DNA of 64,000 nucleotides from Lachnospiraceae bacterium. Lineage in GTDB: Bacteria > Bacillota > Clostridia > Lachnospirales > Lachnospiraceae. Both the position numbers and the translations under genes were made by a program. Of this stretch, positions 7,835-45,929 are shown one piece after another; within the stretch, counting starts at the first letter, position 1; each line of letters starts with the position of its first letter. A model generated the notes under the pieces. It searched no databases. It saw only the letters and a program-made list of their open reading frames with translations, and was not told the origin of the DNA. The stretch is from positions 1-64,000 of the forward strand of contig JAFPWO010000010.1 in the NCBI GenBank assembly GCA_017394885.1. The letters are read 5' to 3'.

Positions 7835-9706
7835 TTAATGTGCCGGAGCCGGCGCGCTTTCTTCGATTACGCCCACGGACCACTTGTTAAAGAGCTCCTC
7901 AAAGCCGGCCTGATCGATCTTCTCTTCGCGGAGCAGAGTTTCCGCTACGGCGTCCAGCACCGCGCGGTATTTGACGATCAGGGCTTTCGCCTTCTCGTAG
8001 CATTCCCGGACGATCCGGCGGACCTCTTCATCGATCAGCGAGGCCGTCTCTTCGCCGTACTCCCGCGTATGGCCAAAATCCCGGCCGATGAAGACCTCGT
8101 CCTCGCCGCCGTAATTGATCATGCCGACCTGGTCGGACATGCCGAATTTCATGACCATGGATTTGGCCAGTTCCGTCGCCTGCTTGATATCCTGGCTGGC
8201 GCCGGTGGTCACGTCGCCGAAGACCAGTTCTTCCGCGATCCGTCCGCCCAGGTCCACCATGATATCCTGCAGCAGCTGGCCCTTGGTCCGGAACATCTCG
8301 TCCTTCTCCGGGAGCGGCATGGTATAGCCGGCCGCGCCCATCCCGGTCGGGATCACGGAGATCGTATGGACCGGGCCGACGTCCGGCAGCACATGGAATA
8401 AAATGGCATGGCCGCCTTCGTGATAGGCCGTGATGCGTTTTTCTTTTTCGGAGATGATACGGCTGCGCTTTTCGCCGCCGATCCCGACCTTGACGAACGC
8501 TTTCTCCAGATCCTTCTGGGTCAGATACTCGCGGTTGTCCTTGGCCGCCTGGATCGCCGCCTCATTCAGGAGGTTCTCCAGATCCGCCCCGGCAAAGCCG
8601 GCCGTGGTCTGGGCGATCCGCTTCAGATCCACGTCGTCCCCCAGCGGCTTGTTCCGCGCGTGCACCTTCAGGATGGCTTCCCGGCCCTTGACGTCGGGAC
8701 GGGAGACGCCGATCTTCCGGTCAAAGCGGCCCGGGCGCAGGATCGCCGGGTCCAGGATATCCGCCCGGTTGGTCGCCGCCAGCACGATGATCCCGGAGTT
8801 CACGCCGAAGCCGTCCATCTCCACGAGCAGCTGGTTCTGGGTCTGCTCGCGCTCATCGTGGCCGCCGCCCAGTCCCGAACCGCGCCGGCGCGCTACCGCG
8901 TCGATCTCATCGATAAATACGATGCAGGGCGCGTTCTTCTTGGCTTCCTGGAACAGATCGCGGACGCGGCTCGCGCCGACGCCGACGAACATCTCCACAA
9001 AGTCCGAACCGGAGATACTGTAGAACGGCACGCCCGCCTCTCCCGCGATCGCTTTCGCGAGCAGCGTCTTGCCAGTGCCGGGCGGGCCCACCAGAAGGAT
9101 CCCCTTCGGGATCCGGGCGCCCAGCGTCGTATATTTCTTCGGATCCTTCAGGAAATCCACGATCTCCTCCAGATCTTCCTTCTCTTCCTTCAGGCCGGCC
9201 ACGTCGCTGAACGTGATATTGTTTCCGCGCACCATAACCGCCCGGCTCTTGCCGAAATCCAGCATTCTGGCATTGGCGCCGGTACTGTTGTTGCGCACGA
9301 TCATGAGGATGATGAAAACGCCCATGCCGGCCAGCAGGATGATGGAGATCACCGTCAGGACATCCACCTTGTGCTCCACGTCGGTCATCTTCCAGCTGAA
9401 ATCCGTGTTCTTCTGCTGATACTTCACCAGCTCGGTCTGGATCTCATTCACGTCAGACGTATAGAAGAAATATACTATGGTATCGTCTTTCAGCAGATAC
9501 CGCACGGTCCCGCTGGGGATGTTTTCGCTCTGGGCAATGACCGCCTCCGTCACCTTGCCAGCCTCCATCTCCTTCTGGAATTCGGCATAGCTCGTTTCCT
9601 TGCGGTTCGACTGGCTGGCGCTTTTGAGTATCGAAGTGGCCAGCAGCACAAAGATGCCCGCCATGAGCAGGTACAGTCCGATATTCGGTCGTCTTATCTG
9701 ATTCAA
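7835..9706 (-). CDS. ftsH: ATP-dependent zinc metalloprotease FtsH
   Basis: FtsH is a membrane-anchored AAA+ protease that degrades membrane proteins and short-lived regulators. The 623-residue protein has two transmembrane segments (about 9-27 and 115-137) flanking an extracytoplasmic domain. It then has an AAA module with Walker A GPPGTGKT (207-214), Walker B IVFIDEID and the second region of homology near 312-330, and a peptidase domain with the zinc motif HEGGH (429-433; HEAGH is commoner). The start codon is TTG at 9706, with AGGAG six bases upstream; no competing ATG exists nearby. It follows hpt, the widely conserved Bacillota order tilS-hpt-ftsH. Confidence 0.97.
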
Positions 9707-9746: not shown

Positions 9747-10289
9747 TTACTCTTCTGCGCCGGTAAACTCCACATAGCCGATGTACGGCAGATTGCGGTA
9801 CTGCTGATCATAATCCAGGCCGAAGCCGACCACGAATTCGTCCGGGATCACAAAGCCGCAGTAATCCACTTTGACTTCCGGGTGCACCCGGCGGGACGGC
9901 TTGTCCAGAAGGGCCGCCAGCTTCAGGGAAGCGGCCCGGCGGCGGCGCATCATATCCAGCAGGTAGGACATGGTATTGCCGGAGTCGATGATGTCCTCCA
10001 CGATGATCACGTGCTTTCCTTCCACCGCTTCATCCAGGTCCTTATTCAGGCGGACCACCCCGGTCGAGCGGGTCCCGCTCCCGTAGCTGGAGCAGCTCAT
10101 AAAGTCCATGGTCACCGGCACGGTAAGGTGCTTTGCCAGTTCCCACAGGAAAGGAACGCTTCCCTTCAGAATGCCTACCAGATGAAGGGTCTTGCCTTCA
10201 TAATCGCGGTTGATCTCTTTCGCCAGTTCACGGATCCTTTCCGTTACCTGGTCTTCACTGAACATGGTCTTGACTACATGCTGCTTCAT
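9747..10289 (-). CDS. hpt: Hypoxanthine phosphoribosyltransferase
   Basis: This purine-salvage enzyme joins hypoxanthine or guanine to PRPP. The 180-residue length is normal. The PRPP-binding loop VEDIIDSGNT lies at about 97-106, and the C-terminal FVVGFGLDY is typical. The ATG at 10289 has GGAGGAAGGG upstream, which favours it even though the first 35 bases overlap the end of tilS in another frame. An internal Met at codon 9 would reduce the overlap, but the N-terminus from 10289 fits the family better. Translation is probably coupled to tilS. Confidence 0.95.
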   Translation of the reverse strand: MKQHVVKTMFSEDQVTERIRELAKEINRDYEGKTLHLVGILKGSVPFLWELAKHLTVPVTMDFMSCSSYGSGTRSTGVVRLNKDLDEAVEGKHVIIVEDIIDSGNTMSYLLDMMRRRRAASLKLAALLDKPSRRVHPEVKVDYCGFVIPDEFVVGFGLDYDQQYRNLPYIGYVEFTGAEE

Positions 10290-32382: not shown

Positions 32383-32408
32383 AATAAGGCCGCCGCAGCG
32401 GCCTTATT
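32383..32408 (-). terminator. Intrinsic terminator of the eut operon
   Basis: A perfect 11-base-pair stem (32383-32393 with 32398-32408) with a 4-base loop overlaps the eutP stop codon and is followed on the minus strand by an AT-rich tail. It ends the 13-kb BMC gene series. Confidence 0.72.
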
Positions 32409-32838
32409 CTGTCTCCGAAAGGAATTCGATGAGCGGCTCCATGCCTGTCCCCGAGATGGAATCGATCACAAAGATCGGATGCGCGCCGGCCAGCTCCAGC
32501 AGCTCTTTCGCCTGCCGGATCTGCTTTTCCGTGGCGAGGTCGGCTTTGGTCACCACCCCGGCTACCGGCAGCATGAACGAGGAGGCCTGGCCCGGCGAAT
32601 ACATAAAGCGTTCCAACAGCGGATCGATCAGGAACAGCACCAGCTCCGTCCCGGTCGCCGTCACCATAAGGCTGCGCAGGAAGGAGCGGTGTTCCAGATA
32701 TTCCCCCGGGGTATCGACCGTATGATTGACGACCTCCAGTGCCTGGGTCTTTTTATAGATCTGCTTTAGTCCGTTGAGGCGCTGGCACAGCGTCGTTTTC
32801 CCGCAGGAAACGGTCCCGATCAGAATAATCTTTTTCAT
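32404..32838 (-). CDS. eutP: EutP/PduV family small GTPase-like protein
   Basis: The 144-residue protein has a P-loop GTVSCGKTT (about 8-16), the G3 motif DTPGEY (42-47) and the G4-type TKAD (97-100). EutP and PduV proteins occur in ethanolamine and propanediol BMC operons, and Salmonella EutP has been reported to have acetate kinase activity, which would let acetyl phosphate from PduL yield ATP. It is the last gene of the operon, and its start overlaps the eutS stop by four bases. Whether it acts as GTPase, acetate kinase or in organelle placement cannot be told from sequence. Confidence 0.9.
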   Translation of the reverse strand: MKKIILIGTVSCGKTTLCQRLNGLKQIYKKTQALEVVNHTVDTPGEYLEHRSFLRSLMVTATGTELVLFLIDPLLERFMYSPGQASSFMLPVAGVVTKADLATEKQIRQAKELLELAGAHPIFVIDSISGTGMEPLIEFLSETE

Positions 32839-33188
32839 GAGCGCGTGATCTCCGCCGGCGCGAAGTGCAGGGTCTCCGTCAGAACGCGGAGCACCCCTTT
32901 CAGCCCGGCTTCCACCGCGGCCGTCTCCCCGCTGATGACCAGGGAGCCGTTAAAGCGGTCGACGAACACGACCTCCACGTCCGCCGCCTTGGTGGCGGCG
33001 TCGGCCCCGATGATCGCGCCTTCGCTCGGCGTGATGGTCATGATGCCGAGCGCGCCTTCCACCTCGCCGATCAGTCCCAGCTTCTTATACAGGGAAGTAT
33101 CCGGATTCGCGATCAGATGCGCCAGCGTGACCTGCTTGCCCGGAACAAATTCCTGAATTATTCGTTTTTTCTCATCCAGTTCGATCAT
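32835..33188 (-). CDS. eutS: BMC shell protein EutS (circularly permuted hexamer type)
   Basis: EutS and PduU are single-domain BMC-H shell proteins whose fold is circularly permuted. The 117-residue protein begins with the extended N-terminal strand region IIQEFVPGKQVTLAHLIANP, then GIMTITPSEGAIIGADAATKAADVEVVFVDRF and SLVISGETAAVEAGL, the usual EutS/PduU order. It would form bent hexamers in the shell, perhaps at edges. It lies between the PduT-like gene and eutP with short spacing and a shared ATGA junction. Confidence 0.93.
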   Translation of the reverse strand: MIELDEKKRIIQEFVPGKQVTLAHLIANPDTSLYKKLGLIGEVEGALGIMTITPSEGAIIGADAATKAADVEVVFVDRFNGSLVISGETAAVEAGLKGVLRVLTETLHFAPAEITRS

Positions 33189-33200
33189 GGAAGTTCCTCC

Positions 33201-33746
33201 TTACATCAGTGTCTCCAGAAGCTCCGGATGCGGGCTGGGTATCACCACGGAGGATAACACCATGCCTTCCGCGTTCGGGGTATGGATGCCGCAGGCGATC
33301 GCTTCCCGCACGGCGGCGACCTCGCCGGTGAGCACCACGAAGGATTTTCCGCCGATCCCGGTCCCCAGGCGTACGTCCACCAGTTCCACGTCGGCTGCCT
33401 TCACCGCGGCGTCCGCGCCGTACACCGAAGCCGTCACCGAGTAGAACTCCATGACGCCGACCGCGCTCATCCGCTCCGGAAAGCCGGTCATGTTGATCGC
33501 CTTCACGACCTGTGGGTCGATATTTGGGATCACGCAGTGGTCCACGACCGTCCCGCCGCCCAGCGCGCATCCGGCGTCCACCGAGGACTGCACCGCGGCC
33601 ACCTCCCCGGTGAACAGCATATAGTATTTTCCCGGGCATCCGGCTTTTGCGAAGAGCATATGGACGTCGGCCGTCTTCAGCACGATATCCGCAGTCTCCA
33701 CGCCTTTCGCGATGCTGTTTAATTCCAGAAAACCAATGCTTTCCAT
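33201..33746 (-). CDS. pduT: Tandem-domain BMC shell protein, PduT-like with iron-sulfur cysteine
   Basis: Two BMC domains lie in tandem (about 1-90 and 95-181). The first carries CPGKY with Cys37 at the place where PduT of Salmonella and Citrobacter holds a [4Fe-4S] cluster at the trimer's three-fold pore. Such proteins may move electrons through the shell. The upstream gene encodes a PduS-like iron-sulfur flavoprotein, its known partner, which supports the call. The gene lies 13 bases before eutS. Salmonella eut operons have no equivalent; this pair is borrowed from pdu-type compartments. Confidence 0.87.
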   Translation of the reverse strand: MESIGFLELNSIAKGVETADIVLKTADVHMLFAKAGCPGKYYMLFTGEVAAVQSSVDAGCALGGGTVVDHCVIPNIDPQVVKAINMTGFPERMSAVGVMEFYSVTASVYGADAAVKAADVELVDVRLGTGIGGKSFVVLTGEVAAVREAIACGIHTPNAEGMVLSSVVIPSPHPELLETLM

Positions 33747-33752
33747 GCTTGT

Positions 33753-35096
33753 CTACTCCTTCTCTATCACGATCCGGTCGGACACTTCCGTCACGGTCCC
33801 GCGGATGCTCGCGTGGATATTTGAGCCGAGCTTTCCTTCCGGGATCGCCGCGATGAGGTCTCCTTCCTTTACCTTTGTCCCGGCCGTGACCGTCGGGACA
33901 GACGGCGCGCCGGCGCTCATCTTGAGCGGGATCATCACCCGGGAAGGATTCCCGTATACCAGTTCGTCGATCTCAATATCATAATAGGCATGTACGCCCG
34001 CGCGGGCCGCGACCCGCTCCGAAGGCGCCTTCCGTTCTTCTCTTTCTTCATGCGGAATCCACACGCTCTCCCGCCGCTCATAGCGGATGCCGGCCGCGGC
34101 CAGCTCTTTTTTGAGTTCCGCATTGATGCGGCGCGGCTGCAGGCCCATCGGGCAGGCATAGGCCTCGCAGATCCCGCACTCGCAGCAGATCTGCGCATTG
34201 CGGATATCCGGGTCATTCAGCAGCTCTTTGATATCCGCGCCGCCGGCCATCTTCCGCATGATGCGGTGCGGCCGGAGCGGATGCCCCAGCAGATGCCGCG
34301 GGCAAAGCTGCGTACAGGTCGTGCACTGAATGCAGGCCGAGCGGGCTCTGCGCAGCATGGTCCGGATATCGGCCGCGCTCGTGGCGGCATAGGCGGCGCC
34401 GGCCGGAAGGACGAGGATCCCCGAGGTGGTCTTGGTGACCGGGGTATTCCCGGCCGCGGACTGCGCAAGCGGCCGGCCCATCATCGGTCCGCCGAGGACG
34501 ATGGTGTAGGTATCCCGCTTTGCGCCGCCGGCCAGTTCGATGCAGGAAGCGATATCCGTTCCGACGGGAACGCAGAGGATGGCAGGATGCCGCACCTCTC
34601 CCGTGACCGTCAGATATTTATAAATAAACGGATAGCCTTTTACGGCCAGCCCGACGGAATACATCGTGGCCACGTTGCAGACGACCGCCCCCACTTCGGA
34701 GGGAAGGCCGCCCGGCGGGACCACCCGCCCCGTTACCTCATAGACCAGGGTCTGTTCATCGCCGGCCGGATAAAAGCTCTCCAGCGTATGGATCTCCACC
34801 GGGGACGCGGCTTTCCGGATGGCCTCCTTCAGCGCTTCGATTTCTTCTTCGTAATGCGCTTTCAGGGCGATCACCGCTCTGGGGATCGCCAGCTCCGAGA
34901 TGACGGCGTCCATCGCGGCTATGATCTTCTCCGCCTTGTGGCGCATCATCCAGCGGTCGTTGCGCAGAAGCGGTTCACACTCCGCCCCGTTGACGATCAG
35001 GACCTCAAAGCGGCCCTTCAGCTTTATGTGAGTCGGGAAACCCGCGCCGCCGCAGCCGATGACGCCGGCCGCCGCAATCTGTTCCAGCAAACTCAT
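33753..35096 (-). CDS. pduS: PduS-like BMC electron-transfer flavoprotein (RnfC/Nqo1-like fold with SLBB domain)
   Basis: The 447-residue protein has an N-terminal nucleotide/FMN region GVIGCGGAGFPTHIKL, an SLBB-type middle (about 160-240) and two ferredoxin-like clusters at Cys255, 258, 261, 265 and Cys304-315. A C-terminal lipoyl-like beta domain follows. PduS is a cob(III)alamin/cob(II)alamin reductase and can pair with PduT for electron movement in or out of the compartment. Here it could reduce cobalamin for EutT or recycle the NADH made by EutE. No separate eut alcohol dehydrogenase is present, which makes the second role attractive. Confidence 0.88.
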   Translation of the reverse strand: MSLLEQIAAAGVIGCGGAGFPTHIKLKGRFEVLIVNGAECEPLLRNDRWMMRHKAEKIIAAMDAVISELAIPRAVIALKAHYEEEIEALKEAIRKAASPVEIHTLESFYPAGDEQTLVYEVTGRVVPPGGLPSEVGAVVCNVATMYSVGLAVKGYPFIYKYLTVTGEVRHPAILCVPVGTDIASCIELAGGAKRDTYTIVLGGPMMGRPLAQSAAGNTPVTKTTSGILVLPAGAAYAATSAADIRTMLRRARSACIQCTTCTQLCPRHLLGHPLRPHRIMRKMAGGADIKELLNDPDIRNAQICCECGICEAYACPMGLQPRRINAELKKELAAAGIRYERRESVWIPHEEREERKAPSERVAARAGVHAYYDIEIDELVYGNPSRVMIPLKMSAGAPSVPTVTAGTKVKEGDLIAAIPEGKLGSNIHASIRGTVTEVSDRIVIEKE

Positions 35097-35115
35097 GACT
35101 CACTGCTCCTTATTC

Positions 35116-35406
35116 TTATGCCTGTACTTTCTTTCTTGCCTTTTCCCGCTCGACCTCGACGGTATCGATGATCGCGACGATCGCCATGTCTGCGGGAATA
35201 TTATCGTTGCCGAAGGCCTTGCGGGCCGTGCTGCCGGAAACGACCAGCACCTGCTCTCCCACCCCGGCGCCGACGATATCCGCCGCCACGTAGGTGTGTT
35301 CAGGGCCTTCCGTATCTTCTTCTTTGACCAGCATCAGCTTCAGGCCTTCCAGATTCGGCTCTTTCTTGGTGGCCCAGATATGACCGACTACTCTGCAAAT
35401 AATCAT
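35116..35406 (-). CDS. eutN: BMC vertex protein EutN/CcmL family
   Basis: The 96-residue protein is the pentameric cap of BMC shells. It begins MIICRVVGHIWATKKEPNL and contains VAADIVGAGVGEQVLVVSGS and DMAIVAIIDTVEVE, which are the standard blocks of the EutN/PduN/CcmL family. One vertex gene per operon is usual. It is followed by the PduS-like gene after 19 bases. Confidence 0.95.
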   Translation of the reverse strand: MIICRVVGHIWATKKEPNLEGLKLMLVKEEDTEGPEHTYVAADIVGAGVGEQVLVVSGSTARKAFGNDNIPADMAIVAIIDTVEVEREKARKKVQA

Positions 35407-35419
35407 AGCAATTCTCCGT

Positions 35420-36109
35420 TCAATCCTCGTATTTGAGTGTTACCTTCCGCCTTATGAAAACATCCCGTGCCGAGGGAGTCAGGATCGCGTCCCGCGGAAG
35501 GATGAGCTCCTCCGGCGCATCCGCCGTCATCTTCAGCGCCGCATCTTCGGTGATCAGGCGGCTCCGGTTCGGTCTCGCGCTGCCGGTCACGGCCGCCGCG
35601 GGCGGCGCCGCAAACTTAGCCGGCTTCGCGGGGATCTCTTCCCAGGTATTGAGCCGCTGCGGCGTCATCAGCTTCACGCCGAAGCCTTCCAGGGTGCGAA
35701 CATACCCTTCCAGCTTCCCGTACAGGCCGGGGCTCGCCTTGCCGGCGAACCGGCGGTGCGGCAGCGCGCTTTCCAGAAGCGCCGCTTCTTTCCCTTCCAG
35801 CAGCGCGGAGATCACCGCGCAGCAGGCCGCATCCGACGGTCTCCCGAGGGCGATATCCGCCAGCTGCAGCAGGGTCAGTTCGGTTATGATCAGCGTATCG
35901 TACCCGCTGATATCCCGGCAGCCCTCATACTCCGAGAGCGGACACAGTTCCGTCCCCGCCTTAAGCTTCGCCGGGACTTTTCCGATGTCGCCGACGATCA
36001 GCGCCTTCTTTTTCCCGCCGCACGCTGCGGCCGGGCAGGGCGCCGGCGCGGCGTTTACGATCTCTTCGACAACCTGCCGGATGATCTTCTCCAGTTCTTT
36101 CTGTTCCAT
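35420..36109 (-). CDS. Uncharacterised BMC-operon protein with N-terminal encapsulation-like helix
   Basis: This 229-residue protein has no assigned activity that I can defend. Residues 2-19 (KELEKIIRQVVEEIV) form an amphipathic helix like those that target cargo to BMCs. A Cys/Ala/Pro linker (21-31) and an alpha/beta core (35-150) with ALIVGDIGKVPAKL and YDTLIITELTLLQLADIALG follow, then a Pro/Ala linker (160-180) and a C-terminal segment with TPSARD (211-216). The core recalls the family annotated only as ethanolamine utilization protein in Firmicute eut operons. It lies between pduL and eutN. The C-terminal segment resembles the N-terminus of the EutT encoded two genes upstream. Confidence 0.7.
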   Translation of the reverse strand: MEQKELEKIIRQVVEEIVNAAPAPCPAAACGGKKKALIVGDIGKVPAKLKAGTELCPLSEYEGCRDISGYDTLIITELTLLQLADIALGRPSDAACCAVISALLEGKEAALLESALPHRRFAGKASPGLYGKLEGYVRTLEGFGVKLMTPQRLNTWEEIPAKPAKFAAPPAAAVTGSARPNRSRLITEDAALKMTADAPEELILPRDAILTPSARDVFIRRKVTLKYED

Positions 36110-36113
36110 TTCT

Positions 36114-36782
36114 TTATCCCCGCTTAACGATCGTGCCGACCGTATCCGGCTTCACCATCGCCGCATTGGCCTCATCCACATCGATATGAACCGCGAGCCC
36201 CGCATCGTCACTGACCCGGACGATGATCCCGTCCAGCGTAAGCGGCCGCTCCGTCTCCATCCGGACCGAAAGCTGCTGCCCGTTGTGCACGCGGTACTTT
36301 TCAGCCTGCTCCGGCGTCATATGGACATGGGCCCGCGCGATGATCGTACTGGACCGGGCCTCATAAATTCCGGCCGGGCCCATGAGCAGCACGTCCTCTG
36401 CTCCTTCCAGCTCTCCGCTCAGGCGAACCGGCGGTTTTATGCCCAGCGCGCGGGCATCCGTGGCGGAGAGCTCCACCTGCACATAGTTCCGCACCGGTCC
36501 CAGGACCGATACCCGCGCCAGTTCGCCTTTCCGTGTCACCAGCTTGACCTGTTCCTCCGAGAGGAACTGCCCCTTCTGACTTAGGTCTTTTTTCGGGGTC
36601 AGCCGGTAGCCTTTTCCGAACAGAATATCCAGGGCCTCCCGCGTCAGATGCACATGGCGCGCCGACATCTCCACCGGGATCGGCGGCTCATCCTTCTCCG
36701 CCTCCCCGGCGCAGGAACGGCCGTACTGTGCGATCACGCCGGCGACGATATCCCGGATATCCTTTTCGCTGTAATAATTCAT
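36114..36782 (-). CDS. pduL: BMC phosphotransacylase PduL
   Basis: PduL converts acetyl-CoA and phosphate to acetyl phosphate and frees CoA inside the compartment; it is unrelated to Pta. The 222-residue protein has an N-terminal encapsulation-type helix (about 5-20), then two PduL domains with the zinc-ligand motifs HVHL (43-46) and HVHM (152-155). In Firmicute eut loci PduL often takes the place of eutD, as here. It starts within the eutT stop codon (four-base overlap). Confidence 0.93.
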   Translation of the reverse strand: MNYYSEKDIRDIVAGVIAQYGRSCAGEAEKDEPPIPVEMSARHVHLTREALDILFGKGYRLTPKKDLSQKGQFLSEEQVKLVTRKGELARVSVLGPVRNYVQVELSATDARALGIKPPVRLSGELEGAEDVLLMGPAGIYEARSSTIIARAHVHMTPEQAEKYRVHNGQQLSVRMETERPLTLDGIIVRVSDDAGLAVHIDVDEANAAMVKPDTVGTIVKRG

Positions 36783-37558
36783 CGTTTCGTCTCCCGATCA
36801 TAGAAGTGCGCCGCCTCCCGGCAGAACAGGATATAGACGCAGCTGGAAAGCCGGTTCATGCCTTCTATGATATCCATGCGCGTTCCCGATCCGTCTTCGG
36901 AAAGGAACGCCCTTGCCGCCGCCAGTTCCGCTTCCCGGACCGCGGTCCTCAGTTCGTTGAGGGCCGCGCAGATGCGCCCCATCCGATAATCCGGAATGGG
37001 ATGATCGATCCCCAGCGTTTCTTTCACCTGATGGGAGGCTCTGCGGATCCCGCGGCTGTCCAGTCCCAGCAGATGCATCTCCGGCAGCGTCTCGTCCTTG
37101 ACCTCGCCGGCCAGAATGATGCGTACATAGTCCAGCAGTTCGCCGAGATCCCGGCAAAGCGCATCCTTCCCCGCTTCCGACGCCAGGACCTGCGCCCCGA
37201 TGAACCGGGCCATCAGGCTGTCCAGCTTCCCGCGGAATTCGATGCGGGGATGCGTTTTCGGCACCAGCAGGTTGGCCCGCAGATGCGTCATGCCTTCCCC
37301 CTTCTGTGCGGTCATCTCCCCGGTCCGGGCGTCCTGAAAGATCACTTTCCCGTCCTTCACGGGGATCGGCGTGACCGTCATGGACCGGTAGGGGCCTGCC
37401 GCCCCGCGGAAGCGGAGCGTCATGCCGTGCTCACGGAGGAAATCCTGCGCGGCCGGCGTGACCACCGTGCCTTCTTCCACGCAGTATTCCGCCAGCCCCG
37501 CGCGCCAGTGCGTGCGCAGCTCGCCGTCGGTGAGCACCGTTTTTCCGCTTTTTCCCAT
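36779..37558 (-). CDS. eutT: Ethanolamine-type cobalamin adenosyltransferase EutT
   Basis: EutT adenosylates cobalamin to make the cofactor for EutBC. The 259-residue protein has an N-terminal segment with VVTPAAQDFLREHG and the conserved stretch MTHLRANLLVPKTHPRIEFR, followed by a helical ATR domain. The HX11CCxxC metal motif of Salmonella EutT is not visible; no cysteine lies near the matching region, as I recall also for the metal-independent Listeria enzyme. It follows the two eutM copies and overlaps pduL. Confidence 0.87.
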   Translation of the reverse strand: MGKSGKTVLTDGELRTHWRAGLAEYCVEEGTVVTPAAQDFLREHGMTLRFRGAAGPYRSMTVTPIPVKDGKVIFQDARTGEMTAQKGEGMTHLRANLLVPKTHPRIEFRGKLDSLMARFIGAQVLASEAGKDALCRDLGELLDYVRIILAGEVKDETLPEMHLLGLDSRGIRRASHQVKETLGIDHPIPDYRMGRICAALNELRTAVREAELAAARAFLSEDGSGTRMDIIEGMNRLSSCVYILFCREAAHFYDRETKR

Positions 37559-37584
37559 GGCTGTCTGCTCCCGGTTCCCGCTTC

Positions 37585-37878
37585 TTACTTATCGCTGGTG
37601 TCCAGCGTCGGCAGGATGTGCTCCACATCTTCATGCGGACGCGGGATCACATGGACCGAGAGCAGCTCGCCCACGCGGGACGCCGCCGCCGCGCCGGCAT
37701 CCGTCGCCGCCTTTACCGCGCCGACGTCGCCGCGGACCATGACCGTGACCAGACCACCGCCCACATGGACCTTGCCGATCAGCTTCACATTCGCTGCTTT
37801 GACCATCGCATCGGCCGCCTCGATCGAGCCGACCAGCCCCTTGGTTTCCACCATTCCCAGTGCCATTAATGTAGCCAT
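37585..37878 (-). CDS. eutM: BMC-H shell protein EutM, downstream copy
   Basis: EutM is the main hexagonal shell-tile protein. The 97-residue protein is a single BMC domain with [40 protein letters not shown] and the C-terminal [15 protein letters not shown]. It differs from the neighbouring copy at only three residues (5, 83, 93). The ATG at 37878 follows a GGAGGAAG site; the frame is open further upstream into the spacer, which does not look coding. Both copies lie between eutE and eutT. Confidence 0.95.
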
Positions 37879-37921
37879 TTTTCTTCCTCCGTTCTTTTCC
37901 GGCTTATTCTTTGCCGCTTTG

Positions 37922-38215
37922 TTACTTATCGCTGGTCTCCAGCGTCGGCAGGATGTGCTCCACGTCATCGTGCGGACGCGGGATCACATGGACCGAGAGC
38001 AGCTCGCCCACGCGGGACGCCGCCGCTGCGCCGGCATCCGTCGCCGCCTTTACCGCGCCGACGTCGCCGCGGACCATGACCGTGACCAGGCCGCCGCCCA
38101 CATGGACCTTGCCGATCAGCTTCACATTCGCCGCTTTCACCATGGCGTCGGCCGCTTCGATCGAACCGACCAGACCTTTTGTTTCCACCATACCCAGTGC
38201 CTGCAGGGTTGCCAT
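37922..38215 (-). CDS. eutM: BMC-H shell protein EutM, upstream copy
   Basis: This 97-residue BMC-H protein is nearly identical to the copy just downstream. It has Gln5, Asp83 and Glu93 where the other has Met5, Glu83 and Asp93; none of these lies in the pore-lining loop around KVHVGGG, so both should build the same hexamer with the same pore. It follows eutE after 51 bases and has its own AGGAGG ribosome site. Two copies may simply raise the dose of the most abundant shell tile. Confidence 0.95.
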
Positions 38216-38266
38216 TTCTTTTTCCTCCTGATTGTTGAAGTTTTTATGTGATTGTGATTACCAGAC

Positions 38267-39748
38267 TTATTTTCCGAGCCGGGCCAGCACCGCCCGGGTG
38301 ATCGCTTCGATATCCTCGCGGCCGAGCATGGACGCCGCCTGCGCGGAAGCGTGTGAAGGGCTGCTTTGCGCAGGACCGTTGCCCCGGAGATCGCTTAATT
38401 CCTTTAATCCGTACGCCACACGGCGGATATTGATCAGATGCATCGGCCCGATATTGTCCGAGGTCGCGCTGCCGCCGACCGCGCCGCATCCAAGGGTGAG
38501 CGCCGGGGCCAGGCCCGTGACCGCGCCGACCCCGCCGAGCGAGCCGGACGTATTGACCAGCAGGCGGGATACCGGTTTCTGCAGGGCAAACTCCCGGATC
38601 ACTTCCTCGTTCCGGCTGTGGATGGTCATGGTGTGGCCCTTGCCTTCCACGAAGAGGATCTCGATGCAGCGCTCGCAGGCTTTCTCCCAGTTCTCCTCCA
38701 CATAGAAGGCCAGCACCGGGCAGAGCTTCTCCCGCGAGTAAGGGTTCTCTTTCCCGGCCGTCGTCTGCGGGGAGATCAGCACCCGGGTGCCGGCCGGGAC
38801 CGAGATTCCGGCCATGTCCGCGATCGTCTGCGCGCTGCGGCCCACGATTTTCGGATTCATGGTCCCGTTCGCCCGCATCAGGAAGCCGCCGAGCTTTTTG
38901 CTCTCCTCTTCGGAGAGGAAGTATCCGCCCTGTCTTTTAGCCTCCTCCATGACCTGCTGCGCGATGGCGCGTTCCGTGATGATGCTCTGCTCCGAAGCGC
39001 AGATCGTCCCGTTGTCAAAGGTCTTGCTTTCGAAGATATGCCGGATCGCCTCGGGGATATCCGCGGAGCGCTCGATATAGGAAGGGCCGTTCCCCGGGCC
39101 CACGCCGAGAGCAGGGTTGCCGGAGCTGTAGGCGGCTCGTACCATCGCCTCCCCGCCGGTCGCGAGGATGATCCCGATATCCGGGTGCCTGAGCAGCGCG
39201 GAAGTCCCTTCTATGGTCGGCATGGTCAGACACTGCACCAGCCCGTCCGGCGCGCCGGCCCCGCGGGCCGCCTTCTCCACGATGCGGAAGGTTTCCAGAA
39301 TGCAGTTTCTGGCCCCGGGATGCGGGCTGATGATGATCGCGTTCCCGGATTTTAAGCAGATCAGGCTTTTGTACATGACCGTGGACGTCGGATTCGTGGA
39401 AGGGATCAGCGCGGCCACGACGCCCATCGGGACGCCGATCTCCGTGATCTTCTTTTCTTTATCCTCCCGCAGGATCCCGACCGTCTTCAGGTCTTTGATG
39501 GCTTCGTAGGTCATCGTACTGCCGAGCTTATTCTTCAGGACCTTATCCTGCCAGATCCCGAAGCCGGTCTCCTCGCAGGCCATCTTGGCGAGCTTTTCCG
39601 CCTCCGCCTCGCAGGCGCGCGCGACGGCACGGACCACGGCGTCGATCTTTTCCTGTCCGAACTTCGCGTATTCCTTCTGCGCCGCTTTGGCTCTCGCAAC
39701 ACAGTTGCGGACTTCCTGAATAGCAAATAAATCTCTGTCAAGTTCCAC
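38267..39748 (-). CDS. eutE: CoA-acylating acetaldehyde dehydrogenase EutE
   Basis: EutE oxidises acetaldehyde to acetyl-CoA with NAD and CoA. The 493-residue protein has an aldehyde dehydrogenase fold with the catalytic Cys250 in NGTICASEQS and the nucleotide region GVGPGNGPSYIERSADI. The last 20 residues (LGREDIEAITRAVLARLGK) form an amphipathic helix joined by a Ser/Ala/Gln linker, a C-terminal encapsulation peptide. The start is GTG at 39748 with AAGGAGGA six bases upstream. The open frame extends 98 codons further across eutL, but that part has no family similarity. Confidence 0.94.
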   Translation of the reverse strand: MELDRDLFAIQEVRNCVARAKAAQKEYAKFGQEKIDAVVRAVARACEAEAEKLAKMACEETGFGIWQDKVLKNKLGSTMTYEAIKDLKTVGILREDKEKKITEIGVPMGVVAALIPSTNPTSTVMYKSLICLKSGNAIIISPHPGARNCILETFRIVEKAARGAGAPDGLVQCLTMPTIEGTSALLRHPDIGIILATGGEAMVRAAYSSGNPALGVGPGNGPSYIERSADIPEAIRHIFESKTFDNGTICASEQSIITERAIAQQVMEEAKRQGGYFLSEEESKKLGGFLMRANGTMNPKIVGRSAQTIADMAGISVPAGTRVLISPQTTAGKENPYSREKLCPVLAFYVEENWEKACERCIEILFVEGKGHTMTIHSRNEEVIREFALQKPVSRLLVNTSGSLGGVGAVTGLAPALTLGCGAVGGSATSDNIGPMHLINIRRVAYGLKELSDLRGNGPAQSSPSHASAQAASMLGREDIEAITRAVLARLGK

Positions 39749-39759
39749 GATCTTCCTCC

Positions 39760-40419
39760 TTATGACTGATACCGGACCGGCGAGGACGCCACCCGGCAGA
39801 CCTGGTCGGCAAATGCCCGGCAGGCGGCCTCGCAGGCGGCCTGTTCTCCGGTCAGCAGGCCTCCGGCGAAGTTGGTCTCCGTCGGCGGCCCGTAGAACAG
39901 CTTCATCTCCACGTCCGCGCTCTTTAAGGCGGCGTCCAGCCCCATCACGGCTTCGGACGGCGGCGCGATCAGATACGCCATGGCCGTGCCCTCCGGCACG
40001 CCGGCTTCCGCGGAAAGATAGCTGCCGGTCCTCGAAATACACTGGGCGTAATACACAACGGAATCATCGTCGTTGGCGCTGTAAAAGCTGGCTTCTTCCT
40101 CGATAAAGTGCGCCGCCGCTTCCAGGCCGCTCCGCACTTCGGCCGGATCCGGCCCGGCCAGGATCCCGATGAACTCCCCGGCCAGTTTCGTGCTCGCGTT
40201 GGAGGATCCGGCGTACATGCTGCGCGCATAAACGACCGTGACGACCGCCTTTTTGGTCGCCTCGTCCAGCGCCGTATAAGCCACGTCGTCGCAATCTGCC
40301 GTAAGGATCCCGACCGATCGGTATCCTTCGGGCAGCTTCAGGGCTTCGCAAAGCGCTTCATCCGCTTTCGGAAGCATCTGAATGCTCAGTACCTGAGCCG
40401 GGACTCTGTCTCCCCGCAT
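39760..40419 (-). CDS. eutL: BMC trimeric shell protein EutL
   Basis: EutL is a tandem, circularly permuted BMC protein that forms trimers with a gated central pore. The 219-residue length is normal. Visible blocks are GYRSVGILTADCDDVAYTAL near the start, YARSMYAGSSNASTKLAGEFIGILAGPDP and, in the second half, PPSEAVMGLDAALKSADVE followed by GGLLTGEQAACEAACRAF. In E. coli EutL binds ethanolamine at the pore, so it may admit substrate. It lies between eutC and eutE, as in most Firmicute eut operons. Confidence 0.95.
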   Translation of the reverse strand: MRGDRVPAQVLSIQMLPKADEALCEALKLPEGYRSVGILTADCDDVAYTALDEATKKAVVTVVYARSMYAGSSNASTKLAGEFIGILAGPDPAEVRSGLEAAAHFIEEEASFYSANDDDSVVYYAQCISRTGSYLSAEAGVPEGTAMAYLIAPPSEAVMGLDAALKSADVEMKLFYGPPTETNFAGGLLTGEQAACEAACRAFADQVCRVASSPVRYQS

Positions 40420-40431
40420 CCTCTTCCTCCT

Positions 40432-41304
40432 CTATTTCACCAGATCCACGCCGCTTTTCTTCTGCTGCAGGATCTTTTCAATCACTTCCGTAATATAGGC
40501 CCCGGCCTCCACCGCCGTCAGCCCGTCCTTATGAATATTGGAAACCACGGTGCGCTTCGCCTCCGGGATGCCGATATGCGCGTCATACACGATATAGGCG
40601 CTCATGCTTTCGGCCGTGGCCAGCCCCGGCCTTTCCCCGATCAGCACGCAGACCACCTTCGCCTTCAGAACTTCCGCGACGTGATCCTCGGCGCCGACAC
40701 GCCCGAAGCGGACAAAGAACGGCGTGCCGAGCTTTAAACCCTTCGCCTGAAGGCCTTCGGTCAGCGCCGGCAGGATCCGCTCCAGATTGGCTTCGATGGC
40801 CGTGGAGCTTAAGCCGTCCGAGGCAAAGATCTGCACATCCGGCTCCGAAATGCATTTTTCCCGGAGCTGCCTCACCGCGTCGTCGCTCAGCTTCCGGCCC
40901 AGATCCGGCCGGGTCAGGTAGGTATCTTTATTGTCGCACTGCGTCTGCACCGTAAACAGCCCCATCCGGCTGATCAGCGTCGGGTCCACGTCCGCAAAGA
41001 CCGCGTCCCGCGCCTTGGCATGGTCCGCGCGCAGGGTGAGCATCGTTTTGGTATTGAGGCGCGGACCGCTCCGGCCGACCCCGATGCGGGCCGTCGTGCG
41101 CTTCTTCATGCGCAGCAGCGCTTCCGGGTCGGCGGCATTTTCAAGCAGCGGAATGGCTTTCTGCTCCGGAGAGGCAAGGTCAGCCCCTTCCGCCGCGGGA
41201 GGCGGTTCCTTCGCCGCGGGGGCCGCATCCGGAAAGGCGCCGCTTTCTTTCAGGCGCCGTACGACTTCTTCTGCGATCCGTTCGATCGTTCTTTCATCCA
41301 GCAC
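40432..41304 (-). CDS. eutC: Ethanolamine ammonia-lyase small subunit
   Basis: EutC is the light chain of the adenosylcobalamin-dependent lyase that splits ethanolamine to acetaldehyde and ammonia. The 290-residue protein begins with an amphipathic helix (residues 3-19, ERTIERIAEEVVRRLKE) and a Pro/Ala linker (24-45), an encapsulation peptide. The conserved subunit follows, with ARIGVGRSGPRLNTKTMLTLRADHA, IFASDGLSSTAIE and VVCVLIGERPGLATAESMSAY. It lies six bases after eutB. Confidence 0.96.
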   Translation of the reverse strand: MLDERTIERIAEEVVRRLKESGAFPDAAPAAKEPPPAAEGADLASPEQKAIPLLENAADPEALLRMKKRTTARIGVGRSGPRLNTKTMLTLRADHAKARDAVFADVDPTLISRMGLFTVQTQCDNKDTYLTRPDLGRKLSDDAVRQLREKCISEPDVQIFASDGLSSTAIEANLERILPALTEGLQAKGLKLGTPFFVRFGRVGAEDHVAEVLKAKVVCVLIGERPGLATAESMSAYIVYDAHIGIPEAKRTVVSNIHKDGLTAVEAGAYITEVIEKILQQKKSGVDLVK

Positions 41305-41310
41305 GGATCC

Positions 41311-42681
41311 TCACCTCCCTGCCGTAAAAATCGTCGGGTCTCCGGCCCGCGGTGTAAGCTTCCCGTTCTCCATGATCCCCATCTTCTCCAGCCATTTTTC
41401 GAACTCCGTGATCGGGCGAAGGCCGAGGATCTCCCGGATCGTCGCCGCGTCATGGTAGGCATTGGTCTGATAGTTTAACATGACGTCGTCACTGGTCGGC
41501 ACGCCGATCAGGTAATTCACGCCGCAGCTGGCCAGCAGCATGCTCAAGTTGTCCACGTCGTTCTGGTCCGCCATCATATGGTTGGTATAGCAGGCGTCGC
41601 ACCCCATGGGAATGCCGGAGAGCTTCCCCATAAAGTGATCCTCCAGCCCGGCCCGGATGACCTGGCGGCTGTCATATAAATACTCGGGGCCGATAAATCC
41701 GACCACCGTATTGACCATAAAGGGAGAAAACTCCCGGGCAAAGGCGTAGCAGCGGGCCTCCATCGTGACCTGATCCGCGCCATAATGTGCCTCCGAGGAC
41801 AGCTCGCTCCCCTGGCCGGTCTCAAAATACAGGACGTTCGGGCCCTTTGCCGTGCCCTTTTCTTTCAGCAGCGCCTTGGCTTCCCGGACCGTATCCGAAG
41901 TAAAGCCGAAGGCCCGGTTGCCCTTTTCGCTGCCCGCGATCGACTGGAAGATCATATCGCAGGGCGCACCGCGCTTTACCGCCTCGATCTGGGTGGTGAT
42001 ATGCCCCAGCACGCAGATCTGGGTCGGGATCTCAAAACGGTTCTTGATCTCATCGAAGCGCTTTAAGACTTCCGTCAGGCTGGCCACCGTATCATTGACC
42101 GGATTCAGGCCGAAAAGAGCGTCTCCGCAGCCGTAGCTTAAGCCTTCGAAGACCGAAGCGGTGATGCCTTCCACATTGTCCGTGGAATGGTTCGGCTGCA
42201 GCCGCGTGGAAAAATGCCCCCGCAGGCCGATCGTCGTATTGCAGGTCGCCGGGATCCGGATCTTGTTCGCCGCATAGATCAGGTCCAGGTTGCTCATCAG
42301 CTTGCAGACCCCGGCCACGACCTCGGCCGTCAGGCCTTTTCCGAGCCGGCGCAGCTCTTCTTCCCCGGCTTCAAAGCTCAGGATATATTCCCGCAGCTGG
42401 GCCATGCTCCAGCCTTTGACGCGCTCATAGACAGCCGCGTCCAGCGAGTCCTGGTTCATCCGCGTGACTTCATCTTCCTCATACGGGACCACGGGGTTTT
42501 CCCGAAGATCGCGCACGCTCAGGCGGCTCAGCACTTCCTTGGCCGCAATGCGTTCCAGCACGGATTCCGCGGCAACGCCGGCCAGCTTGTCGCCGGACTT
42601 TTCTTCATTGGCCTTGGCCAGTACTTCTTTGATGGAACGGAAGGTAAAACGCCTGCCTCCCAGTGTGGTGCCCAAATCCAT
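41311..42681 (-). CDS. eutB: Ethanolamine ammonia-lyase large subunit
   Basis: EutB is the heavy, TIM-barrel chain that holds substrate and the cofactor. The 456-residue length is normal. MDLGTTLGGRRFTFRSIKEVLAKANEEKSGD cut at family blocks marks the N-terminus; FEGLSYGCGDALFGLNPVND, HITTQIEAVKRGAPCDM and NHMMADQNDVDNLS follow, including the substrate and B12 contact regions of the family. The ATG at 42681 has GGAGGA upstream; the open frame before it overlaps eutA and has no similarity. It is translated together with eutC. Confidence 0.97.
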   Translation of the reverse strand: MDLGTTLGGRRFTFRSIKEVLAKANEEKSGDKLAGVAAESVLERIAAKEVLSRLSVRDLRENPVVPYEEDEVTRMNQDSLDAAVYERVKGWSMAQLREYILSFEAGEEELRRLGKGLTAEVVAGVCKLMSNLDLIYAANKIRIPATCNTTIGLRGHFSTRLQPNHSTDNVEGITASVFEGLSYGCGDALFGLNPVNDTVASLTEVLKRFDEIKNRFEIPTQICVLGHITTQIEAVKRGAPCDMIFQSIAGSEKGNRAFGFTSDTVREAKALLKEKGTAKGPNVLYFETGQGSELSSEAHYGADQVTMEARCYAFAREFSPFMVNTVVGFIGPEYLYDSRQVIRAGLEDHFMGKLSGIPMGCDACYTNHMMADQNDVDNLSMLLASCGVNYLIGVPTSDDVMLNYQTNAYHDAATIREILGLRPITEFEKWLEKMGIMENGKLTPRAGDPTIFTAGR

Positions 42682-42695
42682 CTTTCTTCCTCCGT

Positions 42696-44132
42696 CTATC
42701 CGAACAAGAGTGTTTTTACAACGACAGGGACGACCAGCCCGTCCATCAGCGGCCGGCCGATGTCCACAAAATCTCCCGCCTCGACCCGGATGCTGTCGAT
42801 CGCCGCCACCGGGCGGCGGCCGGCGGCCTCCTGCTTCATGGCGTTGCCGAGAGCCTTCGCGATATCCTGCTCCACGACCACGACGACCGGTTCTTTCTCC
42901 GGCAGCGCCCGCGAAAGCGCCTGATAGATGCCGTGGGCCATCTGCCGGATCTCCTGCCAGGTCGGATCCAGCCGCCCGGGGATCGCCAGCAGCATCCGGT
43001 CGGTATCGCTTTGCTCCAGGAACCAGCGGCATTTCTCATACAGGCCCTCGCTACTCCCGTCCAGAAAGCTTTGCTGCTCCTGGTAGCTCAGCTTCAGGGC
43101 CGGCACGTTTTTCAGCGGGAAGATCCCGTCAGAATAGGAAATCGTGCTGCCCGAGAGGGTCGTGGTATAGGTGCCGGCGCCGACCACGGTCGCACGGATC
43201 GTTTCGTTTGCCGGGACCCGGCGCACCGCGGAAAGCGCGGCGTCCTCGCGGATCGAGCGTCCCAGCAGCATGCCGATGTCCCCGAAGCGGAACTCATCGG
43301 CCGTACCGGCCCGGCTGTTCTCCATACAGTCCGCCACCCCGCCGGAAAAGCAGAGGCGGCTGATCCGTTCCGTCCTTTCGGGAAGGGAACTGCCCGGCGT
43401 CCGGACGGCGGAAAGCAGCGGCGTTTCGGGCTTTAGGCCGACGGCTTCTGCCAGAAGGGAAGCCATCCGCCCCGTGATTTTCCTCAAGATGTCCACATCC
43501 GCGCGCTCGCCCGTACGAAGAGAAAGCCCGATCTCCTGCGCGACTTTCTGCGCCGCGGGACTGATATACTGAATCACTTTGTCCCGATCCAGGCGGATCA
43601 GGCGGCCGCCGATATCGTAGCAGCTCTTCGCCGCGGTCTCCCCGCTGCGGAAAACCACGATATTCGTGGTCCCGCCGCCGACGTCCAGATTGGCGACGCT
43701 GCAGTCGTTTTCGATACTGTACTGCCAGGCGCCGCTGCCTTTTCCCGCAATGATGGACTCCAGATCGGGCCCGGCGGTGGAGACGACGAATTCTCCGGCA
43801 AAATCACTGAGCTTACGCAGGACTTCGGCCGCGTTTTCCTTGCGGGCCGACTCCCCGGTGATGATGACGGCGCCGGTGTCGACCGCCTGCGGGGAGAGCC
43901 CCGCCAGCCGGTATTCCCGCGCCACGATCTCCCGCACCGCGTCGCCGTCGATCAGCTGCGGCGTGCGCAGCGGCGTAAAACAGACCTCGCTGCGGTAGAA
44001 AACTTCCTTGGCCACGATAGAGATCCGCGGCGCGCTGAAATAGCCCGCCGTGTTGTCCAGCGTGATCCGGCTGAAGATCACCTGCGTAGTGGATGTTCCG
44101 ATGTCAATGCCGACACTGACGATCGTTGACAT
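42696..44132 (-). CDS. eutA: Ethanolamine ammonia-lyase reactivating factor EutA
   Basis: EutA swaps damaged cobalamin out of EutBC using ATP. The 478-residue protein has an actin/Hsp70-type ATPase fold: the first phosphate loop GIDIGTSTTQ (about residues 8-17) and the second NLDVGGGTTNIVVF. The ATG at 44132 has GGGAGG about eight bases upstream; a start 18 codons earlier would lie inside the terminator hairpin of the leader. It is the first structural gene of the operon and lies directly behind the putative EutV-controlled leader, so the whole shell and enzyme series may depend on readthrough there. Confidence 0.94.
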   Translation of the reverse strand: MSTIVSVGIDIGTSTTQVIFSRITLDNTAGYFSAPRISIVAKEVFYRSEVCFTPLRTPQLIDGDAVREIVAREYRLAGLSPQAVDTGAVIITGESARKENAAEVLRKLSDFAGEFVVSTAGPDLESIIAGKGSGAWQYSIENDCSVANLDVGGGTTNIVVFRSGETAAKSCYDIGGRLIRLDRDKVIQYISPAAQKVAQEIGLSLRTGERADVDILRKITGRMASLLAEAVGLKPETPLLSAVRTPGSSLPERTERISRLCFSGGVADCMENSRAGTADEFRFGDIGMLLGRSIREDAALSAVRRVPANETIRATVVGAGTYTTTLSGSTISYSDGIFPLKNVPALKLSYQEQQSFLDGSSEGLYEKCRWFLEQSDTDRMLLAIPGRLDPTWQEIRQMAHGIYQALSRALPEKEPVVVVVEQDIAKALGNAMKQEAAGRRPVAAIDSIRVEAGDFVDIGRPLMDGLVVPVVVKTLLFG

Positions 44133-44154
44133 GCTGCCTGCCTCCCGAAAGCTG

Positions 44155-44205
44155 AAAAAACAAAAACAGAGCCGAAGCGGCTTCATTTGCCGCCCTGACT
44201 CTGTT
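44155..44205 (-). terminator. Conditional intrinsic terminator in the eutA leader
   Basis: On the minus strand AACAGAG (44205-44199) pairs with CTCTGTT (44171-44165). The helix continues through G-T pairs to GCGGC/GCCGC around a 7-base loop, and TTTTTGTTTTTT follows (to 44155). Its 5' arm uses bases that also form the loop and 3' arm of the second hairpin at 44195-44210, so the two structures exclude each other. Confidence 0.8.
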
Positions 44206-44232
44206 GTCAGCTGCCGTACGCTGTTGTACGGC
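44195..44232 (-). promoter_or_regulatory. Putative EutV (ANTAR) dual-hairpin RNA target before eutA
   Basis: Transcribed in the minus direction, the first hairpin (44232-44213) has a perfect 7-base-pair stem and the hexaloop AACAGC. Two bases later, the second (44210-44195) has a perfect 5-base-pair stem and the hexaloop AACAGA. Paired hexaloop hairpins, the second overlapping a terminator, are the known target of ANTAR regulators such as EutV. The first loop base A fits the known pattern; the G expected at loop position 4 is A here, with G at position 5 in both loops. eutV and eutW lie just upstream. Confidence 0.72.
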
Positions 44233-44236
44233 TTAT

Positions 44237-45313
44237 TTACTTGTTCTGAAAATCGAAGGACACCTTCGTCCCCCGGTCCCCGGAGCTGATATGCAGCTTT
44301 CCGCCCAGCTTGTCCCTCACCAGGGAACGGACGATGCTCAGTCCCAGCCCCTCCGCTTCCGCATCCTCAAAGCCGATCCCGTCATCCGCGACGGTGACGG
44401 CGTGAAACAGCGTCCCTTTGCGGACGGTCAGAAGGACCGTGCCGGCACTGCCCGGCGGAAACGCATGGATCAGCGCGTTGGTCACGAGTTCCGTCACCGC
44501 CATGGAAACGGTCGTCGCCGTATCCGGATCCAGTTCGATATCATCCCCCTCGCTCAGGAGGCGGATCTCACGGTCCGGCGGGATCAGTGCCGAAAGTGAC
44601 TCGCAAAGCTTTTCCATTATCGCGCGGCTTCTGACAGCCGCCGCAGCACCCGGGTTATAGGTCAATATATCATGGATCGCCGCGATTGACAAGACTCTTC
44701 CGACAGATTCCTCCAAAGTCTCCCTGATTTCTGAATATTCCGCTTTTCTTGCCTGAAGCCGCAGAATACTCGCCACCAGCTGGAGGTCGTTCTTGACCCG
44801 GTGATGCATTTCCCGCAGTTCGTTGATGCCCGCGCCGCCGGCCCGGGCCGATTCGATCGGATCGTGCTGCTCCTCATAGCTGCGGGCCAGTTCTTCGTAT
44901 TTGCGCTGCTGCTTCAGATCGGTACTGATATCCTTCTCCCGGATCAGGACGGCGATGACCCTGCCCTCTTCCCCGAAGACAGGCGCCACGTTCTGGCGCA
45001 CGGCGCGGCCTTCCTGGGTGACCGCCTTCAGATCACAGACCGGGACGGCCGCGCGGAAAGCATGAAAAACCGCCGGTTCGTTCTCCGGCAGGGCGTAGGC
45101 GCCCAGTACCGAGCTTCGGTACAGGCCGGTTCCCTGCGCCGGGCAGCTCTCCGCGATGACAAGCGCTTTTTCTTCATCCAGCAGGATATCAAGAAAAACG
45201 TCCGCGTTGGTCACCTCGGCGATCAGCGGCATCTGGTCCATGATCTCCTGCAGTCTGCCGCGGTCGGCCTCCGAAAAAGGCAGATTTTCGATCCGTTCCT
45301 TTCCATCCGTCAT
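44237..45313 (-). CDS. eutW: Ethanolamine sensor histidine kinase EutW
   Basis: EutW senses ethanolamine and phosphorylates EutV. The 358-residue protein has no membrane segment. Residues 25-130 form a PAS/GAF-like sensory domain (related to PocR/EutW N-termini), then HisKA_2 with the phosphoacceptor His in REMHHRVKNDLQLVAS (about 168-183). An HATPase domain follows with TELVTNALIHAFPPG, DDGIGF and GLGLSIVRSLV. In Enterococcus and Listeria the homologue is cytoplasmic. It starts four bases after eutV, and its stop lies five bases before the leader hairpins. Confidence 0.92.
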   Translation of the reverse strand: MTDGKERIENLPFSEADRGRLQEIMDQMPLIAEVTNADVFLDILLDEEKALVIAESCPAQGTGLYRSSVLGAYALPENEPAVFHAFRAAVPVCDLKAVTQEGRAVRQNVAPVFGEEGRVIAVLIREKDISTDLKQQRKYEELARSYEEQHDPIESARAGGAGINELREMHHRVKNDLQLVASILRLQARKAEYSEIRETLEESVGRVLSIAAIHDILTYNPGAAAAVRSRAIMEKLCESLSALIPPDREIRLLSEGDDIELDPDTATTVSMAVTELVTNALIHAFPPGSAGTVLLTVRKGTLFHAVTVADDGIGFEDAEAEGLGLSIVRSLVRDKLGGKLHISSGDRGTKVSFDFQNK

Positions 45314-45317
45314 CAGG

Positions 45318-45929
45318 TCATTCTCCGCTCTTTGCGCCGGGCTTTTTCCGGCGCCCGGCCGTATCCTCCGTCTCCGTCAGCACCTGCGCCAGCTCCGCCA
45401 TGGAGGTGCGCTTATTCATGGACAGGCGCCGCAGCAGCTGATAGGCTTCCGCCTCGGTAATATTCTCCCGCTTTGCCAGGACCCCCTGGGCCCGGGCGAT
45501 CAGTCTGGACTCTTCGAGCTTTCGCTTTGCCTCCTCGGTCTCCCGGCGGCTCTCCTTAAGCCGCCTGCTCTGAGCCAGCGCGACCTCGATGGTGGGCTTC
45601 AGCAGGCGCTGCTCGATGGGCTTGACCAGATAGGCTGCGACGCCGATCCCGGCGGCCCTCTCGATCAGTTCCCCGTCGTTGAAGGCCGTCAGCAGGATCA
45701 CGCAGCGGCACAGATCCGCGGAGAGGATCCTCTCCGCCGCGGACAGGCCGTCAAAGACCGGCATCTTGATATCCATCAGGACAATATCCGGGCGCAGAGC
45801 TCGGCACAGCTCGAGCGCGTCAAAGCCGTCATCGGCTTCCCCGATGACGTCGTACCCCAGTTCCTTCAGCATCAGGGAAAGATCCATCCGGACAATCGGT
45901 TCATCGTCGGCAATCAGTATTCTGTACAT
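45318..45929 (-). CDS. eutV: Ethanolamine response regulator EutV (receiver plus ANTAR RNA-binding domain)
   Basis: The 203-residue protein has a CheY-like receiver (phosphoacceptor Asp53 in VLMDIKMP, Lys103-type site in YLVKPIEQ), a coiled linker and a C-terminal ANTAR domain (about 135-190) with RLIARAQGVLAKRENITEAEAYQLLRR cut at A-Q-G-x-L and Y-x-L-L/R positions. Phosphorylated EutV dimerises and binds paired RNA hairpins to stop terminators forming. Its expected target lies before eutA. It follows the M28 peptidase gene by ten bases, so it may be expressed constitutively from an upstream housekeeping promoter. Confidence 0.94.
   Translation of the reverse strand: MYRILIADDEPIVRMDLSLMLKELGYDVIGEADDGFDALELCRALRPDIVLMDIKMPVFDGLSAAERILSADLCRCVILLTAFNDGELIERAAGIGVAAYLVKPIEQRLLKPTIEVALAQSRRLKESRRETEEAKRKLEESRLIARAQGVLAKRENITEAEAYQLLRRLSMNKRTSMAELAQVLTETEDTAGRRKKPGAKSGE

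Follow-up and report, generated by a model that had tools for sequence, protein, structure and literature searches.

The window, by which we mean the whole 64,000-nucleotide stretch of Lachnospiraceae bacterium DNA that was analysed, appears to carry a standard EutVW antitermination switch that lies intercistronically between eutW and eutA and whose loop code would have been rewritten so that an adenine is read; judging from the DNA and protein sequences, we give this reading a probability of about 0.7. The change of loop position 4 from G to A (hereafter G4 and A4, the other loop positions being named likewise) belongs to a whole clade of EutV proteins and not to this genome alone. EutVW antitermination is a known type of mechanism, and what is new here is the A4 loop code together with the changed residues predicted to contact it.

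On the minus strand, the eutW-eutA interval consists of two perfect hairpins, P1 and P2, followed by a terminator (Table 1), and all the elements noted in an earlier sequence-only reading of this DNA are present, including the two adjacent perfect stems with hexaloops AACAGC and AACAGA spaced by two bases. P1 starts four nucleotides beyond the eutW stop codon (TAA, 44239..44237) and the eutA start is at 44132. The 5' arm of the terminator is made of the P2 loop and the P2 3' arm, and the proposed incompatibility of P2 with the terminator was confirmed both by these common bases and by fold energies. When growing transcripts were folded, P1 with P2 was the optimal structure up to about 64 nt of leader and P1 with the terminator thereafter, and forcing P1 and P2 on the full leader cost 13 kcal/mol (-29.8 vs -42.8). 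The whole leader had a folding z-score of -5.2 and folded better than all of 200 shuffles. A hairpin register that places G at loop position 4 was rejected, as most stem pairs are lost in it. The window therefore displays the tandem hexaloop hairpins, the stems of at least 3 bp, the A1 in both loops and the mutually exclusive P2 and intrinsic terminator by which ANTAR targets are recognized, but has A4 in both loops where the described targets have G4; the element would work like an ANTAR target and is a variant, not a standard member, of that class.

Table 1. Features of the switch, its regulator genes and the putatively gated operon (window coordinates).
Feature	Coordinates	Strand	Description
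eutV	45318..45929	(-)	REC + single ANTAR response regulator, 203 aa; Ser141/Gln148 at the Arg142/Lys149 sites
eutW	44237..45313	(-)	sensor histidine kinase: GAF_PdtaS, HisKA_2, HATPase
P1 hairpin	44232..44213	(-)	GCCGTAC-AACAGC-GTACGGC; 7 bp, hexaloop AACAGC; from folding and covariation
P2 hairpin (antiterminator)	44210..44195	(-)	CTGAC-AACAGA-GTCAG; 5 bp, hexaloop AACAGA; from folding and covariation
Intrinsic terminator stem-loop	44205..44165	(-)	AACAGAGTCAGGGCGGC...GCCGCTTCGGCTCTGTT; starts at the P2 loop, ends CTCTGTT at 44165
Terminator T-tract	44164..44155	(-)	TTTGTTTTTT; from sequence
eutA	42696..44132	(-)	first gene behind the switch
eutB, eutC, eutL, eutE, two eutM-type shell genes, eutT, eutD, hypothetical eut protein, eutN, RnfC-like, BMC, eutS-type BMC, eutP	32404..42695	(-)	rest of the gated operon
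Strong terminator-like hairpin	32408..32383	(-)	operon end

In a generic scan of the 64 kb window for two hexaloops with an overlapping terminator and a T-tract, the site ranked first (54.75 vs 46.4 for the next), and when the 64 kb was dinucleotide-shuffled 100 times, no shuffle reached its score (best shuffle 47.05). The element was recognized by no Rfam model, only chance-level matches being returned, and a covariance model of canonical G4 leaders did not report the site at E <= 10. A covariance model built on the A4 leaders of the clade scores the site at 39.8 bits, the window being among its training sequences, and reports canonical loci at E 0.13 or worse. A covariance-model search for the two-hairpin motif was one of the checks that had been proposed, and in this genome the clade model returned a single match, the eutW-eutA site; a second switch inside the operon, sought by covariance model and terminator scan, was not found. 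A class-wide search with the A4 model under stricter filters found only the window and one other genome, G420.

Searching the genome collection with EutV recovered a dozen relatives with 51-71% identity, mostly from Oscillospiraceae-type gut bacteria plus one Synergistaceae MAG. Most have the gene order eutV-eutW-eutA-eutB-eutC-eutL, and the same double hairpin is present in their eutW-eutA regions. When the A4 set was extended across the orders to which G420, G103 and the window's genome belong, no additional close members of the clade turned up. At loop position 4, 25 of 28 clade loops have A (P1 14/14, P2 11/14), and canonical EutV leaders have G in 48/48 loops (P1 24/24); these leaders are a sample and not a census, drawn from a scan that also required a terminator. 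G4 occurs in P2 of three clade members whose EutV has Lys149 (L033, L039 and L040). A1 is found in 27/28 clade loops, and the terminal C:G closing pair, a criterion from SELEX on NasR, in all P1 (14/14) and all P2 (14/14) hairpins. The consensus of A1 and G4 that the sequence-only reading had given agrees with the literature (PMC3369931, PMC8934654); for actinobacterial predictions, conservation of A1 and G4 is put at only 'more than 50%' (PMC8164766), and no A4 ANTAR loop is described in the open PMC literature that we searched.

The same reading had pointed to both A4 and G5 in the two loops, which is true of the window; A4 extends to the clade, but G5 is not constant across the relatives (19/28 loops). 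This bears on the possibility, which we hold to be unlikely, that the clade protein reads G5 and not A4, the flipped base having moved by one position. Such a shift would fit the presence of G5 in both window loops and in 12/14 clade P1 loops, compared to 5/24 canonical P1 loops. However, G5 is found in only 7/14 clade P2 loops, with A4 in 14/14 P1, it is missing from P1 of the nearest relative (AGCATC, which has A4 without G5) and of L037 (AGCACG), and Tyr164, Glu160 and Met172, which set the geometry of the pocket, are unchanged. From the aligned loops, the change is best described as G4 to A4 and not as a G shifted to position 5.

In the structure of E. faecalis EutV bound to RNA, G4 is flipped out and stacked on Tyr164, and Arg142, Lys149 and Glu160 form hydrogen bonds with it (PMC8934654). 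When aligned to 6wsh, the window protein carries Ser141, Gln148, Glu159 and Tyr163 at the Arg142, Lys149, Glu160 and Tyr164 sites, so that two of these four residues, a set that defines the G4-reading type and not EutV as such, are changed. These changes, which affect two of the three residues hydrogen-bonded to G4, bear out in sequence the suggestion that EutV may have co-varied with its loops. Glu160, Tyr164 and Met172 are kept in the clade pocket. Residue 142 is Arg in 1/15 clade EutVs vs 27/29 canonical EutVs, and this column is the second most discriminating of all between the two groups. L113 retains Arg142; targets of its regulator, sought by pattern and model in G370, were not found. 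Lys149 is present in 29/29 canonical EutVs and is replaced by Gln in 6/15 clade EutVs (the window, L032 and L034-L037). All six Gln149 members have A4 in both loops, but A4 in P1 is also seen with eight clade EutVs that have Lys149; within the clade, the association of Gln149 with A4 in P2 (6/6 vs 5/8) carries too little weight when taken by itself. That Gln149 might read adenine where Lys or Arg reads guanine would be chemically natural. Arg142, Lys149 and Glu160 are invariant in 70/70 other ANTAR domains of the phylum, in a sample that favours high-scoring domains. Among published EutV mutants, R142A costs 8-fold, E160A 60-fold and Y164A 55-fold. In NasR, R340K and K347R, aligned with sites 142 and 149, cost about 10-fold each (PMC7496416).

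A loss of reading altogether might also be envisaged: with a tandem ANTAR or other changes, base 4 would no longer be read, and A4 and the loss of Arg142 and Lys149 would be neutral drift. That all changes fall on one branch, that P2 position 4 is A or G in Lys149 members and that site 142 takes many residues in the clade (S, Q, N, K, T, E) are consistent with such a relaxation, but we consider it distinctly unlikely, since the base at position 4 does not vary at random (25/28 loops have A, and none has C or U), P1 has retained A4 although the clade is deeply diverged, and site 149 is substituted only to Gln.

Aligning the leaders of relatives, another check proposed earlier, showed that the paired hairpins are kept with compensatory changes. 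Over the 14 aligned clade motifs, 93.7% of stem cells are paired, both-sided changes occur in 7 of the 9 stem pairs, and the covariation score is 0.493, whereas shuffles give 0.210 (sd 0.034) and sliding the partners gives no more than 0.118, from which we conclude that the hairpins are maintained as structures. An ordinary eutW-eutA terminator, or a switch run by a non-EutV factor, with incidental hairpins, is therefore very improbable: the terminator is strong by itself, but compensatory changes affect both hairpins over the 14 motifs, the genome holds one ANTAR gene and one motif side by side, and the placement is the same in relatives.

The sole ANTAR gene found in this genome is eutV, whose product associates a REC domain carrying the phosphoacceptor Asp (Asp53, aligned with Asp54) with ANTAR and is encoded beside a PdtaS-type kinase gene. 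EutV-type antitermination with eutVW directly upstream, as first proposed, is supported by the anatomy of the switch, by gene placement and by the covarying leaders of relatives. The further proposal that this is the only switch in the locus and gates 15 genes finds support in the single model match, the single ANTAR gene, the tight packing of the 15 eut/BMC genes, which run from eutA to eutP with no gap longer than 51 nt, and the hairpin at the operon end. Since only four bases separate the eutW stop from P1, the switch would have to act on transcripts from further upstream; it would attenuate upstream read-through, with no promoter of its own directly before it. A promoter-like match inside eutW (44692-44664, minus strand; TTGTCA-17-TATATT with TG, a consensus match only) could feed the switch independently of the upstream genes. 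In two relatives, a small cysteine-rich ferredoxin-like ORF lies between eutW and the switch (L039 ~2060-2260, L040 ~9825-10010).

In the described system, EutV that has been phosphorylated by EutW forms a dimer and stabilises the hexaloops, and termination is prevented (PMC3369931, PMC8934654). If the window switch operates in this way, upstream transcription would produce eutV and eutW and normally halt at the terminator before eutA. EutW, on sensing ethanolamine, would phosphorylate EutV, which would dimerise and hold the P1 and P2 hexaloops; with P2 persisting, the terminator could not form and RNA polymerase would continue through the 15 eut genes. At loop position 4, the EutVs of this clade would read A where canonical ones read G, and their binding pocket would have been altered accordingly, in the window from Arg142 to Ser and from Lys149 to Gln (E. 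faecalis numbering). We infer that the window EutV binds this RNA, that it prefers A4 and that ethanolamine is the signal. A broader scenario, for and against which we see the balance as even, is that of a natural switch in ANTAR-RNA specificity: clade EutVs would read A4 via Gln149 or a remodelled 142/149/150 pocket, would be orthogonal to G4-reading ANTARs, both being able to coexist in one genome, and the new code would have arisen together with the REC-ANTAR-ANTAR arrangement, from which the window lineage would later have reverted.

The window-type EutVs form one supported clade (100/99), and the EutV tree shows a single change of P1 position 4, which falls on the branch with this support. 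One long branch accounts for A4, for the missing Arg142 and for the second ANTAR domain, which therefore represent one co-occurrence, not independent covariation. Most clade EutVs have a second ANTAR domain, which is absent in the window EutV. In L033-L042, L046, L112 and L113, EutV is a REC-ANTAR-ANTAR protein of about 245-260 aa, in which, by eye, the second domain keeps the equivalents of Lys149 and often of Arg142, with the Met172 'plug' seemingly missing; no description of a tandem-ANTAR EutV was found in the open PMC literature searched. The early-branching termite sequences have the second domain as well, which makes an early gain probable, followed by a loss in the window/L032 lineage.

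Some clade switches are placed before genes other than eutA. In the termite-gut locus L041 (9865-12606), eutVW-like genes are followed by an A4-type switch, behind which come a gene for a glycyl radical enzyme (PFL2-like) and that for its activase. In L112, two A4-type dual hairpins (8130-8165 and 55-90 on the minus strand) lie near a tandem-ANTAR regulator, and one of them leads a dapA-like gene followed by an FAD oxidoreductase, a TRAP transporter and two Fe-ADH genes; the ANTAR targets of this set would not be eut genes. G420 holds this tandem-ANTAR regulator with its two A4 motifs as well as a canonical EutV with a G4 leader (L117), which suggests orthogonal codes in one genome, the two-code genome being uncertain given a contamination of 6%. 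A second ANTAR protein of the L032 genome is encoded on contig G831:C35 (L154), where a possible dual hairpin at ~10304 on the reverse strand of the same stretch has the P2 loop AATGAC (G4), making this a candidate two-code genome.

No EutA match was found among the 15 congeners searched, the M28 peptidase gene directly beside the eut block (window 32404-45929) is present in 14 of these 15, and the gene order from eutV to eutP is the same as in L032. Horizontal acquisition of eutVW, the switch and the 15 genes as a unit is therefore probable, although there is a small chance that the placement of the block is a misassembly of the draft genome. An ANTAR switch has thus seemingly moved between bacteria along with its regulator and operon.

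A1/G4 has been treated as a general ANTAR recognition rule, and the published genome search started from a seed alignment in which it was fixed; that search would probably miss switches of the A4 type, as the G4 model built here misses the window site. The clade constitutes a natural experiment in which one RNA base and two nearly invariant contacting residues have changed together, and the base code can be tested by swaps.

The closest known system is EutVW of E. faecalis with its switches in the eutA, eutP, eutG and eutS leaders (PMC3369931; PMC8934654), which likewise comprise two hexaloop hairpins with A1 loops, the second overlapping an intrinsic terminator, and which likewise depend on a cognate REC-ANTAR regulator and a PdtaS-type kinase, with one switch placed before eutA. 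The window differs from it by A instead of G at loop position 4, by Ser and Gln at the Arg142 and Lys149 sites, by one switch found in the genome instead of four, and through its relatives, which carry a second ANTAR domain. The nasF leader recognized by NasR of Klebsiella oxytoca (PMC7496416) also has two hexaloop hairpins, for which SELEX defined the terminal C:G pair and A1, but NasR prefers G4, needs Arg340 and Lys347 (aligned with 142 and 149) and has a NIT sensor domain in place of REC. AmiR of Pseudomonas aeruginosa, acting on the amiE leader, is likewise an ANTAR antiterminator and, like nearly all clade members, lacks Arg142, with Gln at this site (1qo0); unlike the window protein, it still has Lys at the Lys149 site, and A1/G4 loops are reported for its target (PMC3369931), so that Arg142 is not strictly a G4 determinant.
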